Assembly (NCBI RefSeq): GCF_900129375.1
Contig: NZ_FQVN01000006.1
Location: 372,001 to 436,000, forward strand
Reading direction: 5' to 3'
Source of the DNA: Streptoalloteichus hindustanus
Lineage (GTDB): Bacteria > Actinomycetota > Actinomycetes > Mycobacteriales > Pseudonocardiaceae
Length of the DNA: 64,000 nt
The translations under genes were made by a program, and so were the position numbers. Of the stretch, positions 2,347 to 64,000 are shown piece after piece (the first letter of the stretch is position 1; each line of letters starts with the position of its first letter). Below the pieces are notes generated by a model, which worked only from the letters and a program-made list of their open reading frames with translations, had not been told where the DNA came from and ran no database searches.

Positions 2347-3058
2347 GCTCGTCGAGCAGCGCGAGCAGCGCGTCGGCCACCGGGTTCGGCTCGGTGGCCG
2401 GTGCCAGGTGGTGGGCGGGCGCATGCCGCACCGGCCACCCCCAGCGACGGGCGGCTTCGGCCTCCTGCCCGTAGGGCGTCCGGCTGAGCAGCAGGTAGCC
2501 GACCCGGCCGGGCCAGGACACGTCCGGGCGGGGCTCGTCCAGGAACGCGGCGGGCACCCGGACCTGCTCCCGCGCGATCCGCTCGCGCAGCGCCGGGTCG
2601 TCCACCAGCTCGGGCAGCGGGTCCGGCTGGAACCAGTCGCTCCACGGCGGCAGGCGGTCGTCGACGACGAACCGCCGGAGGAAGGCGTCCAGCTCCGGGG
2701 CCGCCTCGTGGAACGAGCGGCCGGGCGTGGGCAGGGTGGAGTCCAGCAGCACCAGGGCGAGGACCTGCCGGTCGAGGGCGTCGGCCAGGCCGGGCAGCAG
2801 GGGGCCGGCCCCGCTGTGGCCCACCAGCACCAGCGGGCCCTGCGCCGCGTTCGAGCCGACGACCTCGGCGAACACCTCGGCCAGCCGCCGGTGGATCGCG
2901 CCGTCGGCGGCGCCGGCCGGCGGCGGGGCCAGCGCGGGCCGCAGGTCCGGCACCAGGGCGGGCCGGCCCCGGCGCAGCACCGCGGCGGCCAGCGGGCGCA
3001 GGCTGCTCGGCCCGAGGAACGGGCTGTGCACCAGGACGGTCGTCGGGGACTGCGGCAT
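2333..3058 (-). CDS. Alpha/beta hydrolase family protein
   Basis: A 241-residue alpha/beta-hydrolase-fold protein of unknown substrate. It opens with a core strand ([15 protein letters not shown]) and carries a nucleophile elbow GHSGAGP about residue 80, with the serine flanked by glycines. A strand [11 protein letters not shown] follows, and a histidine near the C-terminus (PAHHLAP) may complete the triad. ATG at 3058 gives a normal N-terminus. The gene is divergent from cobyric acid synthase (48 bp gap) and overlaps the end of map. Similar small hydrolases act as esterases or thioesterases; nothing here decides that. Confidence 0.85.
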
Positions 3059-3106
3059 GCCCCGGATGATGTCACCCGACGCGGGTGGGGGAGTGGAGGG
3101 GAAGCC

Positions 3107-4645
3107 GTGGGCGGAGCGTTGCTGGTCGCCGGGACCACCTCGGACGCGGGCAAGAGCGTGCTGGTGGCGGGGCTGTGCCGGTGGCTGGCGCGGCGCGGGC
3201 TGCGGGTGGCGCCGTTCAAGGCGCAGAACATGTCGAACAACTCGGTCGTCACGCCCGACGGCGGCGAGATCGGCAGGGCGCAGGCGCTCCAGGCGGCCGC
3301 CGCCGGCCTGGAGCCGAGCGTGCGGTTCAACCCGGTGCTGCTCAAGCCCGGCGGCGACCGCAGCTCCCAGGTCGTCGTGCTGGGCAGGGCCATCGGCGAG
3401 GTGACCGCGTTGTCCTACAGGCAGCGCAAGGCCGAGCTGGCCCGCACCGTGCACGAGACCCTCGACGGGTTGCGGCGCGACTTCGACGCGGTGGTGTGCG
3501 AGGGCGCGGGCTCCCCGACCGAGATCAACCTGCGGGCCAACGACATCGCGAACATGGGGCTGGCGCGCGCGGCCGGGATGCCGGTGCTGGTCGTGGGCGA
3601 CATCGACCGGGGCGGCGTGTTCGCGCACCTGTTCGGCACGCTGGCCCTGCTCGACCCGGCCGACCAGGCGCTGGTCGCCGGGTTCGTGATCAACAAGTTC
3701 CGGGGCGACCCGGCCCTGCTCGAACCCGGGCTGCGGCAGCTCCGCGCGTTGACCGGCCGGCCCGTGCACGGGGTGCTGCCCTGGCGCGAGGAGCTGTGGC
3801 TGGACGCCGAGGACTCGCTGTCCTACGCGGCGGACGGGGTGGTGGGTCGGCCCAGGCCGCCGCGGGGGCGGCAGTGGCTCCGGGTGGCTGTGATCCGGTT
3901 GCCGCGCATCTCCAACGCGACCGATGTGGAGGCGCTGGCCGCCGAGCCCGGCGTCGCCGTGCGCTTCGCCACCGAGCCCTCCCGACTGGCCGACGCCGAC
4001 CTGGTCGTGGTGCCCGGGTCGAAGGCCACCGTGTCGGACCTGGACTGGTTGCGGCGCACCGGCCTCGCCGAGGCGGTGCGGGCGCACGCGGCGCGGGGCC
4101 TGCCCGTGCTGGGCATCTGCGGTGGCTTCCAGATGCTGTCCCGCCGCATCGACGACCCGGTGGAGTCGGCGGCCGGGGAGGTGCCCGGGTTGGGGCTGCT
4201 CGACGTTGACATCGCCTTCGCGCCGGACAAGACGCTGGCGCGGCCGACGGGTGCGGCGTTCGGTCACGCGGTCGCGGGCTACGAGATCCACCACGGCCAG
4301 GTCGTGCGTCGGGGTGATCGGCTGGTCCCGTTGGTGGAGTTGCCCGGCAGTGCGCCGGAGGGCGTGGTGTCGGGTGGTGTCGCTGGCACGCACTGGCACG
4401 GGCTGTTCGAGAACGACGACTTCCGTCGGGCGTTCCTGCGCTGGGCGGCGGAGCGCGCCGGGCGCGACGGCTTCGTGCCCGCGCCGGACGTCGCCTTCGC
4501 GGCGGCGCGCGCCGCCCAGCTCGACCTGCTCGGTGACCTCGTCGAGCAGCACCTCGACACCGACGCGGTGCTGCGACTGCTCGACGAGGGCGCCCCGGCG
4601 GGGCTCCCCGCGCTGCCGCCCGGCGCTCCGCCGCTGGAGCCCTAG
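3107..4645 (+). CDS. cobQ: Cobyric acid synthase
   Basis: Glutamine-dependent amidase that amidates four side chains of adenosylcobyrinic acid a,c-diamide to form cobyric acid in B12 synthesis. 512 residues. An N-terminal dethiobiotin-synthetase-like ATP domain (GTTSDAGKS near residue 10, [10 protein letters not shown] near 38, [12 protein letters not shown]) is followed by a type 1 glutamine amidotransferase domain with nucleophile C338 ([10 protein letters not shown]) and H431 (THWHGLFEN). GTG at 3107 follows a GGAGGGG ribosome site. It stands alone: no other cobalamin genes are adjacent, and no cobalamin riboswitch fits in the 48 bp upstream. Confidence 0.95.
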
Positions 4646-57885: not shown

Positions 57886-58971
57886 ATGACGAACGCAGCG
57901 CCGGTCTCGGCCCGCCGGGACCTCACCCAAGCCCCGTTGCTGGTCGCCGCGCGCGGCGGCGCCCCCTCCCACGTCCCGGTCTGGTTCATGCGGCAGGCCG
58001 GCCGCTCGCTCCCGGAGTACCGCGAGGTCCGCGCGGGCGTGCCGATGCTCCAGGCGTGCTTCACCCCCGAGCTGGCCTGCGAGGTCACCCTCCAGCCCGT
58101 GCGCAGGCACGGGGTGGACGCGGCGATCCTGTTCAGCGACATCGTGGTGCCGCTGGCCGCGGCCGGGGTGGACCTGGACATCGTGCCGGGCACCGGCCCG
58201 GTGGTGGCCGACCCGGTGCGCTCGGCGGCCGACGTCGCCGCGCTGCCGGCGCTGGACCCGGCCCAGGTGGAGCCGGTGGCGCAGGCCGTGCGGCTGCTGG
58301 TCGGCGAGCTGGGCCAGACCCCGCTGATCGGCTTCGCCGGCGCGCCCTTCACCCTGGCCTCCTACCTCGTGGAGGGTGGCCCGAGCCGGCACCACGAGCG
58401 CACCAAGGCGCTGATGCACTCCGACCCGGAGACCTGGCACGCGCTGCTCGACCACCTGGCCGGGCTCACGCTGGAGTTCCTGCGGGTGCAGGTGGCGGCC
58501 GGCGTCGACGCGCTGCAGCTGTTCGACTCCTGGGCCGGCGCGCTGTCCGAGGCCGACTACCGCCGGTTCGTGCTGCCGCACTCGCGGCGGGTGCTGTCCG
58601 GCCTGGCCGACGCGGGCGTGCCGCTGATCCACTTCGGCGTCGGCACCGGCGAGCTGCTCGGGGCGATGCGGGAGGCCGGCGCGGATGTTGTGGGCGTCGA
58701 CTGGCGCGTGCCGCTGGACGAGGCCGCGCGGCGGGTCGGTCCCGGCGTCGCGTTGCAGGGCAACCTCGACCCGGCGCTGCTGTTCGCCGGCTGGGACGTC
58801 GTCGAGGCCGAGGTGCGCCGGATCGTCGAGCAGGGCCACGCCGCCGACGGGCACATCTTCAACCTCGGTCACGGCGTGATGCCGGAGACCGATCCCGCGG
58901 TGCTGACCAGGGTGGTCGAGCTGGTCCACTCCCTGCCGGTCGCCCCGGAGCGGGAGCGGGTCCGGTCGTGA
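57886..58971 (+). CDS. hemE: Uroporphyrinogen decarboxylase
   Basis: Decarboxylates uroporphyrinogen III to coproporphyrinogen III. 361 residues. Signature [16 protein letters not shown] near residue 30, [59 protein letters not shown] and [13 protein letters not shown] with the late His. ATG at 57886 follows GGTGGGGAG. Overlaps hemY by GTGA: first gene of hemE-hemY-hemQ. Confidence 0.96.
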
Positions 58972-60413
58972 CCCCGGCGCGGGTGCTGGTCGTCGGGGGC
59001 GGGATCTCCGGCCTGGTGGCCGCGTACCGCCTGCGGACCCTGCTCGGGGAGCGGGCCGAGATCGTCGTCGTCGAGCAGTCCGACCGGATCGGCGGCAAGC
59101 TGCGCACGGTCGAGCTGGCCGGCGAGGGCTACGACGTGGGCGCCGAGGGGTTCCTGCTGCGCCGGCCCGAGCTGCTGGACCTGGTCACCGAGCTGGGGCT
59201 GGCCGACGAGCTGGTGACCCCGGCGCTGCTGGCGTCGCGGGTGCGGGCGGCGGGGCAGTCGGTCCGGGTCCCCCCGCGCACCCTGATGGGCGTGCCCGCC
59301 GCGCCGGAGGTGCTGCGGGAGGTGCTCTCGCCGGCCGCGGTGCGGCGGGTGGCCGACGAGCCGGCGCTGCCCCCGCTCGACCTGGACGGCGCGGACGTGT
59401 CGGTCGGCGGGCTGCTGCGCGCTCGGTTGGGTGACGAGGTGGTCGACCGGCTGGTCGACCCGCTGTTGGGCGGCGTGTACGCCGGCCGGGCCGACGACCT
59501 GGGCCTGCGCGCCACCATGCCGCAGTTGGCCGCGGCGCTGGACCGCGGCGCGGGCTCCCTCGTCCGGGCGACCGCCGAGGTGGTCCCGGCGCCGAACCCG
59601 GACGCGCCGCGCCCACCCGTCTTCGGCGCGCTGCGCGGCGGCTTCCGCGTCCTGGTGGACCGGCTCGCCGCCGCGTCCCGCGCCCGGCTCCGCCTCGGCC
59701 AGCCGGTGCGCTCGCTGACGCGCGCCGAACGCGGCTGGCGGGTGGAGATCGGGCCGGCCCCGCGCCCGGAGGTGGTGGACGTCGACGGCGTGGTGCTCGC
59801 CGTGCCGGCGCCGGCCGCCCGGCGGCTGCTCGCCGACGTCGCGCCGGTGGCGGCCGCCGCCTACGGGCGGGTCGACGTCGCCTCCATGGCGGTCGTGGCG
59901 CTGGCGCTGCCGGCCGGCACCCAGCTGCCCGAGGCCAGCGGGGTGCTGGTCGCCGAGGGCGAGCGGTGGGCCGACGGCACCCCGTTCACGGCCAAGGCGT
60001 TCACGTTCTCCAGCCGGAAGTGGGGGCACTTCGGCGACCGGGTGCTCGTGCGGGGCTCGGTGGGCCGGTTCGGGGACGCGGCCGTGTTGCGGCGCGACGA
60101 CGCCGATCTGGTGCGCGCGGTGCGCGCCGACCTGGCGGAGCTGACCGGCGTCCGCGTGGAGCCGTCGGACGCCGCGGTGATGCGGTGGGGCGGTGGTCTG
60201 CCGCAGTACGCGGTCGATCACAACGACGTGGTCGCGACCATCGAGAGCACCGTCGCTGACCAGCCAGGACTCGCCGTGGCGGGCGCCACGTTGCACGGTG
60301 TCGGCCTGCCGGCCTGCGTGGCGACGGCGGACGCCGCGGCCCGCCGTGTCGCTGCCCACCTCCCGGCCGACGCGGTCGCCGGGAGTGGGACGATGGGCGC
60401 ATGGCCCGCCTGA
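58968..60413 (+). CDS. hemY: Coproporphyrinogen III/protoporphyrinogen oxidase
   Basis: A 481-residue FAD flavoprotein that oxidises coproporphyrinogen III to coproporphyrin III in the actinobacterial (coproporphyrin-dependent) haem route. FAD motif [81 protein letters not shown], and the C-terminal FAD-binding segment [20 protein letters not shown]. The GTG start overlaps the hemE stop, and the hemQ start lies 13 bases inside its 3' end. Often named hemG in databases; the presence of HemQ supports CgoX/HemY activity. Confidence 0.94.
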
Positions 60414-61093
60414 ACTACGCCGAGCTCAACAACACCATCCGGTACACGATGTGGTCGGTCTTCCGGATCCAGCCGGGGGCGCTGCCCGCGGACCGCGGTC
60501 CGGCCGCGCGGGAGGCGCAGGAGTACCTCGACGCCCTGGAGGGCAAGGGGGTCGTGGTTCGCGGTGTGTACGACGTCGCCGGTCTGCGCGCCGACGCGGA
60601 CTACATGATCTGGTGGCACGCCGAGGAGATCGAGCAGGTGCAGGCCGCCTACACCGGGTTCCGCCGCACCGCGCTGGGCCGTGCGTCGACTCCGGTGTGG
60701 AGCAACGTGGCGCTGCACCGGCCCGCCGAGTTCAACAAGAGCCACATCCCGGCGTTCCTCGCCGGCGAGGAGGCGCGCAAGTACGTGTGCGTCTACCCGT
60801 TCGTCCGCTCCTACGAGTGGTACCTGCTCCCCGACGAGGAGCGCCGCGCGCTGCTGGCCGAGCACGGCCGCGAGGCGCGGGACTACCCGGACGTGCGGGC
60901 CAACACGGTGGCCTCGTTCGCGCTGGGTGACTACGAGTGGATCCTCGCCTTCGAGGCCGACGAGCTGCACCGCATCGTGGACCTGATGCGGCACCTGCGG
61001 GGCACCGACGCGCGGCGCCACGTGCGGGAGGAGATCCCGTTCTACACCGGCACCCGCGTGGTCCCCTCCGAGCTGGTCCTCAACCTGCCCTGA
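60401..61093 (+). CDS. hemQ: Coproheme decarboxylase HemQ (chlorite dismutase family)
   Basis: A 230-residue enzyme that converts iron coproporphyrin (coproheme) to haem b, the last step of the route used by monoderm bacteria. Chlorite-dismutase fold: [51 protein letters not shown] (reactive-Tyr region), [13 protein letters not shown] with H155 as likely axial ligand, and [20 protein letters not shown] at 60401 overlaps hemY by 13 bases, so hemE-hemY-hemQ are translationally linked. A ferrochelatase gene (hemH) is not in the window. Confidence 0.96.
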
Positions 61094-61138: not shown

Positions 61139-61162
61139 GCGCGGCCTTCTCATCGGCCGCGC
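61139..61162. terminator. Possible terminator hairpin after hemQ
   Basis: Eight-base arms GCGCGGCC/GGCCGCGC with an eight-base loop; it overlaps the last codons of the convergent gene at 61150. Confidence 0.45.
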
Positions 61163-61530
61163 CGCCACCACCAGCGGCGGCGCGGCGGTAGCACCTCGCC
61201 GCGTTGGGCCAACCAGTCCGCGAAGGAGCTCGCGTCCTGCCGTGTGGTCGATCCGGCCCGGCGGGGGTTGGCCGCGGCGTAGGCGTCGAACAGCGGGCTG
61301 AACCGGTCGCCGAGCTGGTCGACGAGGTCGGGTCGGAGCCGGGCGACGATCCGCCGGCGCTTCGCGCGGAGCGCCCTGGCCTGGGCCCGCACGCGCTCGG
61401 CGTCGAATCCCGGTGGTGGGTCGGCCGAGAGCACCAGGGCGCGCAGCAGGTCGGTCTGCGCGGCGGCCAACCGATGGCGGCGCTCCGCGTCACCCGGGTC
61501 CACGCCGCCGTCGCGAGTTCCTCCGCTCAT
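61150..61530 (-). CDS. Small helical protein, probable partner of DUF692 enzyme
   Basis: A 126-residue cytosolic protein, mainly helical, ending in a very basic tail ([12 protein letters not shown]). An N-terminal helix ([20 protein letters not shown]), [20 protein letters not shown], then [21 protein letters not shown], a pattern reminiscent of the DUF2063/HvfC-MbnC-type partner proteins that dock DUF692 oxidases to their substrates. ATG at 61530 overlaps the DUF692 stop (ATGA). I recognise similarity only by pattern, not by a firm family match; actinobacterial relatives are annotated SCO6045-like. Confidence 0.75.
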
Positions 61531-62348
61531 GTCCACTGCGGCCGCACGACGTCCCGGATGGCGGCCAGTTCGGCCGCGAGCTCCTCGTCCGAGGGGTAGC
61601 GGTCGTCCCGTTCGAGCAGCACCCCGGGTGGGTCCACCCGCCGCCGCAGCTCGGCGAGGAGGTCGAGCACCGGCTGGGTCACCGGGTGGGCGTGCGTGTC
61701 GTGGTAGAGCCCGTCCTCCCGCTCGGCCCCGCCCGCGACGTGCACGTAGGCGAGCCGCTCCCACGGCACGGCGTCCAGGAACGCCAGCGGGTCGCTGCCC
61801 AGGTTCCGCGCGTTGACGTGCAGGTTGGCCACGTCGACCAGCAACCAGCACCCGGTGCGCTCGACCAGCTCGGCCAGGAACTCGCCCTCGCCCAGGTCGG
61901 CGTCCGGCCAGTCCAGCAACGCGGCCACGTTCTCCAGCGCCAGCGGGACCGGCAGCTCGGCCTGCGCGTCGAGCACGTTCGCGACCAGCACCTCCAGCGC
62001 GTCCCTGGTCCGGGGCACCGGCAGCAGGTGCCCGGCCTCCCAGCCCCCGCCCCGGACGAACGCCACGTGGTCGCTGACCAGCGGCGCGCCGAGCGCCTCG
62101 GCGACCGCGGCCAGGTGCGCGACCCGGGACCGGTCGACCGGGTCGGCGCCGCCCAGCGACAACGAGACCGCGTGCGGCAGCACCGGGACGCCGCGCCCGC
62201 GCAGCACCCGCAGGGACTCCGGCAGGTTTCCCGGCCGCACGCCCTCCGCGACCACCTCGACGAAGTCCACTCCGGGCAGGCTCTCGACCGTCAGGTCGAT
62301 CTCGGGGCGCCAGCCGATGCCGAGACCGAGCCGGGGGAGGGCACTCAT
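61527..62348 (-). CDS. DUF692 (MNIO superfamily) enzyme
   Basis: A 273-residue TIM-barrel protein of the DUF692 group, the multinuclear non-haem iron oxidases that modify cysteines of ribosomal peptides (MbnB, TglH relatives). Ligand-type motifs in order: [26 protein letters not shown] (His), [12 protein letters not shown] (Asp/His), LALENVAAL (Glu), [14 protein letters not shown] (Asp/Asn/His), AYVHVAGG (His), YHDTHAHPV (Asp/His/His) and LLERDDR (Glu). ATG at 62348 follows AGAGGTGATCGC. The next gene, the small helical protein, overlaps it; a Cys/Gly-tailed membrane protein is encoded upstream. Confidence 0.92.
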
Positions 62349-62408
62349 GCGATCACCTCTCGTCGTCGGGTGGTGACAGGTCCCTGTGGTCCTTCCCGTG
62401 GGGAGAGT

Positions 62409-62474
62409 GGGCTCGTCCCGCCCCGGCCCGCCGGGGAGATTCCCCCCTACCCGGCGGTGGCGCGGGACGAGCCC
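62409..62474. terminator. Long stem-loop between TIGR04222 gene and DUF692 gene
   Basis: Perfect 13-base arms (GGGCTCGTCCCGC and complement) enclosing 40 bases that can form a second GC hairpin. It follows the TIGR04222 stop by 11 bases. May be a terminator or attenuator that reduces DUF692 expression relative to its putative substrate. Confidence 0.55.
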
Positions 62475-62484
62475 GTCATGGCGG

Positions 62485-63351
62485 TCACCCTCCGCAGCCG
62501 CCCCCACCGCAGCCGCCGCCCCCTCCACCGCCAGATCCCCCGTCGGAGCCCCCGCCCGACCCCCCGTCGCCACCGCTGGCACTGGAACCTCCGCCGCCGT
62601 CGGAAGAGGAGCGCTCGCCGGACAGGAGGGCGGCCCGCTCCGGCCCCGGCGGCATCGCCGTGATCCCGACCAGCGCGAGCATCATGGGCAGTTCGGCCGT
62701 GGGAACCTGCGAGTACCGCCGGGCGCGCGCCGTCGCCACGAGCTGGTCGCCGAACGTCGTGCGCAGCGGGTGGGGGCGGACCAGGCCGAGCACGACCACG
62801 AGCGCGGTGAGGGCGAGGAGGAGCGACAACCAGAGCACCGGCCGGTTGAGCTCGATCCCGTTGACCAGGCGCAGCACGCCCACCACGCCGACCAGGGCCG
62901 CCGGCAGGACCGCCCTGGTCGCGCCGGCCCGCGCGTGCTCCGGGTCGACGACCGCGCCGGAGGCCACGAGCCGGCGCTCGATCTCCTCGACGGCCGGCAG
63001 GGTCCGCGCGGCCGCGCGGAGCTGACTCACGGTCAGGGCGCGGCCGACGGCGACCAGGCTCAGCAGGTCCGCGTCGATCACCCACGACGCCGGCACGCCG
63101 GTCGCCCGCAGGCCACCGCCGCGGGAGACCCGCAGCGCGCCAGAGGTGACCAGCCGTCCGACCGCGAGGTCGGCCAGCCGGGACGGACCGCCGGCCAGGT
63201 AGGCCAACTCCTCCGAGCTCAGCGTCCGGGGACGGCCGTCCGCCACGCGCATCCTGTGCCGCGCCGCGACCAGCCACACCGCGGCCAGTCCGAGCGCGAC
63301 CACGTACACCAGAAGGAACTCCGGGCCGCTCAACCCCCAGGGCTCGTTCAT
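62485..63351 (-). CDS. TIGR04222 membrane protein with Gly/Cys-rich C-terminal tail
   Basis: A 288-residue protein. N-terminal helix ([20 protein letters not shown]), an intracellular region with [20 protein letters not shown] and [19 protein letters not shown], two central helices ([37 protein letters not shown]), then a further soluble part ([16 protein letters not shown]) and an extreme tail of about 45 residues of Gly/Ser/Asp ending GGGGGCGGGGCGG. The two cysteines are in this tail and absent elsewhere. Typical of the TIGR04222 family. ATG at 63351; the upstream paralogue ends 22 bases before it. Confidence 0.9.
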
Positions 63352-63373
63352 CCCCGTCCCCCCGTTCTCTCCG

Positions 63374-64000
63374 TCAGACCACGCCGTGGCTGTTGGACCC
63401 GGTGACGCTGTCGCCCCGCCACCACCCGGGCGGCCACCCCGCCGTCCCGCTCCCGTCGCCGGACGGGTCGCGCGGGTGGTCGGGGTGGGCGGCCAGGCCG
63501 TCCAGGGCGACCACGCCCGCCGGGCCGGCGACCCGGACCACGGCCGGGTCGAAGCCGGCCAGCGGGGTTCCGTCGTCGGTGGTGGGCTCCCACACGGCCC
63601 GGCGGGCCGCCCGGAGCACCCGGTCGCCGGCGGCGGTGCGGGTCGGCGGCCGCCGGCGGCGCACCCAGACGGCGGCGAGCAGGGTCAGCCCCACCAGTCC
63701 GGTGTCCCAGTCGATCGGCTCGCCCGACACGAGCCCCGTGCACCACCGGACCAGGCCGACGGCGGCGAGGAGGAGCAGGGGCAGCACCGCCACCGCCCGC
63801 GCCCTGCCCACGGCGTGCGGGTCGACCGCGTAGCCGGCGCGCACGAGGCGCGCGCCCAGTGCGTCGACCGCCGGGGAGCGGCCGACCTCGGCCAGCACCC
63901 TGGCCAGCGGCCTGCCGTGGGTGGGTACCGCTCGCGCCACGAGCTCGTCGACGCCGGTGGCGGTGGTGGGCGGCGGAACCGGGACCAGGACGCCCGCCGC
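63374..64000 (-). CDS. TIGR04222-like membrane protein (start outside window)
   Basis: The C-terminal 208 residues of a paralogue of the gene at 62485. Frame remains open to the right edge of the window (AAGVLVPVPPPTTATGVDEL), so the start is outside; an internal GTG at 63940 is not the likely start. Shares the pattern AVDALGARLVRAGYAVDP, two helices (VAVLPLLLLAAVGLV, GLVGLTLLAAVWV) and [14 protein letters not shown]. Its tail (GSNSHGVV) lacks Gly/Cys repeats, so it would not be a substrate but perhaps a partner. Confidence 0.85.
   Translation of the reverse strand, partial: AAGVLVPVPPPTTATGVDELVARAVPTHGRPLARVLAEVGRSPAVDALGARLVRAGYAVDPHAVGRARAVAVLPLLLLAAVGLVRWCTGLVSGEPIDWDTGLVGLTLLAAVWVRRRRPPTRTAAGDRVLRAARRAVWEPTTDDGTPLAGFDPAVVRVAGPAGVVALDGLAAHPDHPRDPSGDGSGTAGWPPGWWRGDSVTGSNSHGVV

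Follow-up and report, generated by a model that had tools for sequence, protein, structure and literature searches.

A candidate MNIO modification system encoded with a Gly/Ser/Cys-tailed TIGR04222 membrane protein in Streptoalloteichus hindustanus

What does an MNIO enzyme act on when it is encoded together with full-size membrane proteins? This question is raised by the minus-strand operon that closes a 64,000-nucleotide stretch of Streptoalloteichus hindustanus DNA (contig NZ_FQVN01000006.1, positions 372,001 to 436,000; hereafter the window, in whose own numbering coordinates are given), which encodes, in order, two TIGR04222 membrane proteins (#1 and #2), a DUF692/MNIO enzyme and a 126-aa protein. 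We favour, with moderate confidence, a two-component MNIO system that modifies an integral membrane protein, oxidising its tail in place on the cytosolic side. The Gly/Ser/Cys tail of TIGR04222 #2 is probably the modified element, as judged from the sequence data.

The substrate hypothesis itself, modification of a Cys-tailed TIGR04222 protein by an MNIO, is already published. Antoine et al. 2025 (PMC12452194) propose that MNIOs act on some TIGR04222 membrane proteins, those whose C-termini are rich in Gly/Ser and bear Cys; describe the partners in these clusters as short DUF2063-like "PME-type 2" proteins, which they detect in 10% or more of the TIGR04222 clusters; and place the TIGR04222 domain and the tail outside the cytoplasm, in the periplasm, on the basis of predicted topology. 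By sequence and prediction, the window system belongs to this recently described class. What is added here is the tracking of tail Cys with the MNIO, the fusions of MNIO and partner, a predicted cytoplasmic tail, a possible likeness to GOLPH3/GPP34, and the hemQ and msrB neighbours; a term search of the main text of PMC12452194 gave no occurrence of hemQ, MsrB, coproporphyrin, GOLPH3 or GPP34, and the passages on fusion that were consulted, 12 of 14, describe no MNIO-partner fusion.

The membrane proteins, the enzyme and its partner

A sequence-only reading of the window had named a DUF692 enzyme with metal-ligand motifs, a small helical partner-like protein overlapping it, and two TIGR04222 membrane proteins, one of them Gly/Cys-tailed, and all of these were borne out. 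TIGR04222 #1 (63374..64000, minus strand, continuing to 64228 beyond the window; complete sequence in locus L007) has 284 aa, lacks a Cys tail and scores 105 bits against a cut-off of 43. TIGR04222 #2 (62485..63351, minus strand, 288 aa), at 121 bits, is predicted to have three transmembrane (TM) helices, with a possibly GPP34-like soluble domain between TM1 and TM2 and a TM2-TM3 hairpin. Its C-terminus, ...GGGGGGGCGGGGCGG, is Gly/Ser-rich with two Cys, and the tail of residues 251-288 (62488..62601, minus strand), the proposed modification site, is disordered as judged by low pLDDT (the AlphaFold2 confidence measure; 86.9 for the model). In relatives, 1275 of 1330 tail Cys are followed by Gly or Ser. 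That the two Cys arose by chance in a low-complexity reading frame was also considered, and is ruled out by 284 distinct Cys-bearing tails in relatives.

The enzyme (61527..62348, minus strand, ATG at 62348, 273 aa) matches PF05114 (MbnB_TglH_ChrH) with 274 bits against a gathering cut-off of 25 (E 1.2e-81). The residues H59, H94, E139, D172, N175, H203, D217, H219, E246 and D248 are invariant across the 188 aligned rows, of which 166 are distinct because some genes entered the alignment twice. Ten further rows had initially been removed from this alignment: nine of them match at the metal-site residues and the tenth is truncated. Most of the conserved residues align with identical residues in the MbnB/TglH comparison alignments, and we take them to be metal ligands, in line with work on those enzymes. 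The nearest named maturase model is that of BufB (NF050167, MNIO_BufB), with 195 bits, under its cut-off of 310. No signal peptide was seen on inspection of the enzyme by eye.

The 126-aa protein (61150..61530, minus strand), with four long helices, starts within the MNIO stop as ATGA, a 4-nt overlap. Its top structural match is MbnC, the partner of the MNIO enzyme MbnB; its structure is thus related to that of known MNIO partners, without a DUF2063 Pfam match, and it lacks the length to include the RRE-type second half found in DUF2063-RRE partners. Sequence searches of the PDB with the protein, as a single query and as a profile, gave no useful match, and a profile match with two DUF2063 proteins of the same genome (22%) led nowhere. 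Among 80 named loci of relatives, fetched with the MNIO alignment and recounted with a clean partner profile, the partner is present in 78, as a separate gene in 59 and fused to the MNIO in 19; both loci without it (L316 and L346) end at a contig edge near the MNIO. In the family sample it lies directly downstream of the MNIO in 79 of 81 loci, one of them fused. The sequence-level fusions support a role in which the partner would bind the enzyme and present the substrate, and they are relevant to the published question of why so many TIGR04222 clusters are apparently partner-less. PMC12452194 models, as its PME-type 2 example A, a 115-aa protein from Saccharothrix sp. NRRL B-16314, the strain to which our named locus L277 belongs.

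In the S. hindustanus genome, three genes encode MNIOs and two encode TIGR04222 proteins above cut-off, the latter both in the window operon; each of the two remaining MNIOs is accompanied by a full-length DUF2063-type partner, on a contig where TIGR04222 has no match. One of them (L009; contig C5, 4540-5493, minus strand) is BufB-like, with 302 bits against the cut-off of 310, and has VLKNTSS in place of the family LEN. It may be inactive or altered, since the conserved Glu ligand is replaced by Lys. An open reading frame with His-rich runs (2918-3649, plus strand) is convergent with the partner gene of this paralogue. At L008 (contig C18, 4754-4933, minus strand), a 59-aa Cys-free, Arg-rich reading frame shares 4 nt with the start of a BufB-type MNIO gene, and is possibly a Cys-free precursor or a chance frame.

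Tail cysteines and the enzyme among relatives

If the tail is the substrate, its Cys would be expected to accompany the enzyme. A same-strand Cys-tailed TIGR04222 protein (at least two Cys in the last 45 residues and a Gly/Ser-rich end) is encoded near the MNIO in 68 of the 80 named loci, and four of the remaining 12 (L306, L316, L319 and L352) end at a contig edge near the MNIO; tail-less TIGR04222 proteins are encoded in 32 of the 80. Across 296 class-level genomes, 62 have both a TIGR04222 protein above cut-off and an MNIO, 22 have TIGR04222 only, 14 an MNIO only and 198 neither, the TIGR04222 counts being lower bounds from nine candidates scored per genome. Among genomes with Gly/Ser-tailed TIGR04222 proteins, the tail bears Cys in 47 of 48 with the MNIO and in 3 of 12 without it; G153, G172, G434 and G444 enter this count only by distal single-Cys proteins from a whole-genome search, and the genomes without the MNIO, scored at nine candidates each, were covered less exhaustively than those with it. 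G373, whose reading frame runs off the contig, and G573 were excluded beforehand, and G539, with a BufB-type MNIO only, was tallied separately. Each of the three exceptions has a peculiarity: G401 has an MNIO fragment at a contig edge, the Cys of G555 lies upstream of the Gly run, and the end of G490 is Ser/Cys-rich, not Gly-rich. In G539 and G595 the sole MNIO found is BufB-type by the NCBIfam cut-off, and their Gly tails are Cys-free. No MNIO was found in G213 and G298 of the family sample, whose Gly/Ser tails are Cys-free; G340 has no such tail.

Gene linkage appears unnecessary, since 18 of 20 fetched distal TIGR04222 loci in MNIO-positive genomes, picked by hand from the matches listed, are Cys-tailed. 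On a tree of 59 proteins, which leaves out G401 and G490, the MNIO label switches only twice, giving one or two independent pairs. The match is for this reason a pattern and not a phylogenetically independent test, and a Fisher p of 1.4e-7 for tail Cys against the MNIO was rejected as a formal test, the rows being related. Cys in the Gly/Ser tail thus tracks this MNIO clade, with exceptions, but independent events are too scarce to test it. As a separate observation, four Streptomyces-type loci (L359, L360, L362 and L363) have a distal TIGR04222-like protein with a Gly-rich end and a single Cys.

Several results weigh against modification of the tail. In 12 of 60 MNIO-positive genomes only tail-less TIGR04222 proteins appear. 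Ten of these, Streptomyces-type by group (f5/g6) and by a gene order like that of named Streptomyces loci, yielded no Cys tail when the family model was run over the whole genome; G424 and G374 stood outside that search, in which every first-look candidate was scored save in G532 (85 of 99) and G515 (85 of 86). Two tail-less loci carry a DUF4142 protein between the MNIO and the tail-less TIGR04222 gene, in four named Streptomyces loci no TIGR04222 gene was found within the fetched stretch, and Cys tails occur in two draft genomes (G289 and G296) where no MNIO was found. The DUF4142 protein (L260, 7372-8211; L333, 9107-9907) occupies the slot of the Cys-tailed TIGR04222 gene of other Streptomyces loci.

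These results bear on the proposal that the tail Cys are not MNIO substrates at all but, in unmodified form, bind metal or make thiol adducts, the enzyme and partner targeting another protein, such as the tail-less TIGR04222 protein or the DUF4142 protein of some Streptomyces. The genomes with only tail-less TIGR04222 proteins favour it, as do MNIO-partner fusions in stretches where no TIGR04222 gene was found and the modification of Asp, Asn or Phe by published MNIOs (table in PMC12452194). However, it leaves unexplained why Gly/Ser tails are mostly Cys-free where this MNIO is absent, and why a Cys tail stands beside the enzyme in so many named loci, and we regard it as unlikely. The match could instead reflect common descent of an orthologous group without any enzymatic link, as the few label changes on the tree would allow; but the set is kept together although its order changed (TIGR04222, MNIO and partner in one arrangement, fused MNIO-partner followed by TIGR04222 in another), and distal Cys-tailed copies are present in MNIO-positive genomes, which makes this explanation quite improbable. 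The claim of the sequence-only reading that enzyme and partner act on the tail Cys of a full-size membrane protein is thus upheld in part: gene linkage, partner fold, fusions and the tail-Cys match speak for it, whereas the 12 genomes without a Cys tail do not, and priority for it lies with the 2025 paper. The co-occurrence that it proposed to check tells in part against it: in the ten Streptomyces-type genomes, searched whole, this enzyme was found only with tail-less TIGR04222 proteins.

Side of the membrane and proposed mechanism

On which side of the membrane would the tail be modified? Positive-inside counts of relatives favour a cytoplasmic tail in 42 of 42 cases at TM1. A fourth hydrophobic segment has a poor insertion score (0 of 68 relatives below zero) and is a 12-residue helix in the AlphaFold model. 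The soluble domain may resemble GOLPH3/GPP34, although only 3 of 69 TIGR04222 members match PF05719 (best E 0.012), none at the gathering cut-off, and P0003 has no match; a search of the S. hindustanus genome for GPP34 gave no match, nor did any control genome give one. TIGR04222 proteins differ from GOLPH3/Vps74 and bacterial GPP34 by the added TM1, TM hairpin and tail. The GPP34 proteins are presumably cytosolic. As a side observation, 12 of 69 relatives match DUF2207_C (best E 1.1e-5), which suggests a relationship between the membrane proteins of the TIGR04222 and DUF2207 families.

Taken together, the models predict a cytoplasmic Gly/Ser/Cys tail, contrary to the published periplasmic reading. 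In the opposite arrangement, the tail would be a membrane-tethered, bufferin-like element, modified before or during insertion, that chelates copper outside. In its favour stand the topology predicted in PMC12452194 and two findings that count against our own prediction: Kyte-Doolittle analysis gives four hydrophobic segments in 21 of 69 proteins, 20 of these being N-out, so that the tail would lie outside, and in P0003 the score of the fourth segment nearly equals that of TM2. The positive-inside counts, the poor fourth segment with its short helix, the possible likeness to GPP34 proteins and an enzyme apparently without a signal peptide speak against it, and we consider an outside tail improbable.

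For the cytosolic tail, the following mechanism may be outlined. A cytosolic MNIO-partner complex, a single polypeptide in many Streptomyces, would dock on the TIGR04222 protein and oxidise the GCG cysteines of the tail at the inner face of the membrane. By analogy with bufferins or methanobactin, the product would most likely be a S/N ligand of the thiooxazole or oxazolone-thioamide type. Since the tail is predicted to be cytosolic, neither a leader peptide nor export would be needed for modification in situ. The product may be a membrane-tethered, cytosol-facing Cu or Fe site that serves or protects the neighbouring haem pathway or copes with redox stress, this functional step being the weakest. 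Metal binding at the membrane and a complex with the tail-less paralogue, both put forward by the sequence-only reading, may be part of it. The reaction, product, metal and haem link are what we infer from the observed genes, residues, predicted folds and associations. The fullest version, in which the cytosol-facing tail of a membrane protein with a GOLPH3-like domain receives metal-binding heterocycles from the MNIO-partner complex and forms a tethered inner-face metal or haem/iron site working with the adjacent coproporphyrin-dependent haem pathway, the leaderless full-size protein being the final product, is tentative and rather doubtful.

Compared with known systems, the window operon shares with the TIGR04222-MNIO-PME-type 2 clusters of PMC12452194 the family, the Gly/Ser/Cys tail, the MNIO neighbour and the short DUF2063-like partner, and differs by the predicted cytosolic tail and by a partner found, partly as a fusion, in nearly all loci of the clade. 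Bufferins (BufA with BufBC) likewise combine an MNIO and a partner with a Cys-bearing substrate, and the enzymes are related; in contrast, the window enzyme falls under the BufB cut-off, its partner is too short for an RRE-type half, and its substrate, by prediction only, is a multi-TM protein with a cytosolic tail, not a Sec-type soluble precursor with a signal peptide that acts in the periplasm. With methanobactin MbnBC and pearlin TglHI it shares the MNIO family, the metal-site residues and an MbnC-like partner, whereas their substrates are small peptides. If the favoured reading is correct, MNIO chemistry known from peptide precursors would also complete large membrane proteins in place, and a big actinobacterial class thought to be extracytoplasmic would act on the inner side, in conflict with the published topology.

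Haem genes and other neighbours

A plus-strand hemE-hemY-hemQ set (57886-61093) faces the operon, and msrB lies past the window end. The set consists of hemE (57886..58971; uroporphyrinogen decarboxylase, TIGR01464, 423 bits, cut-off 303), a hemY/cgoX-type protoporphyrinogen oxidase gene (58965..60413; TIGR00562, 186 bits, cut-off 97.85) and the convergent hemQ (60401..61093; hydrogen peroxide-dependent heme synthase, NF042928 HemQ_actino, E 7.4e-112, 372 bits, cut-off 235). Searches of the relatives with window or own-genome proteins as queries found hemQ within the stretch in 45 of the 80 named loci, on the strand opposite to the MNIO in 44, and msrB in 35, of which 33 are in the Pseudonocardiaceae-type group (n=37, assigned by hand from record titles). 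The usual order in that group is msrB, TIGR04222 copies, MNIO, partner and convergent hemQ-hemY-hemE, and in many Streptomyces it is fused MNIO-partner, Cys-tailed TIGR04222, tail-less TIGR04222 and convergent hemQ. Because the neighbours are kept despite this rearrangement, they hint at a link to haem synthesis or redox stress, and would offer an initial clue to the function of the class, which PMC12452194 leaves open. A literature search found no paper joining DUF692 and hemQ.

In one table of PMC4991794, on oxidative stress and linked to HbpS-SenS-SenR, SCO6045, presumably part of this locus type, is about 3-fold up. A locus titled Rhodococcus rhodnii NRRL B-16535 (L302, and L118) resembles that of Kibdelosporangium (L305), and the record may be misnamed.

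The MNIO gene is separated from the Cys-tailed gene by a gap (62349..62484, minus strand) with a 13-bp perfect hairpin (minimum free energy -78.5 kcal/mol, z -2.65, over 62349-62490). This hairpin was not recovered among nine relatives with a gap of 40-400 nt before the MNIO, one of which (L295) has a different 13-bp inverted repeat. In the window, it could set differing expression of the Cys-tailed gene and the MNIO gene.
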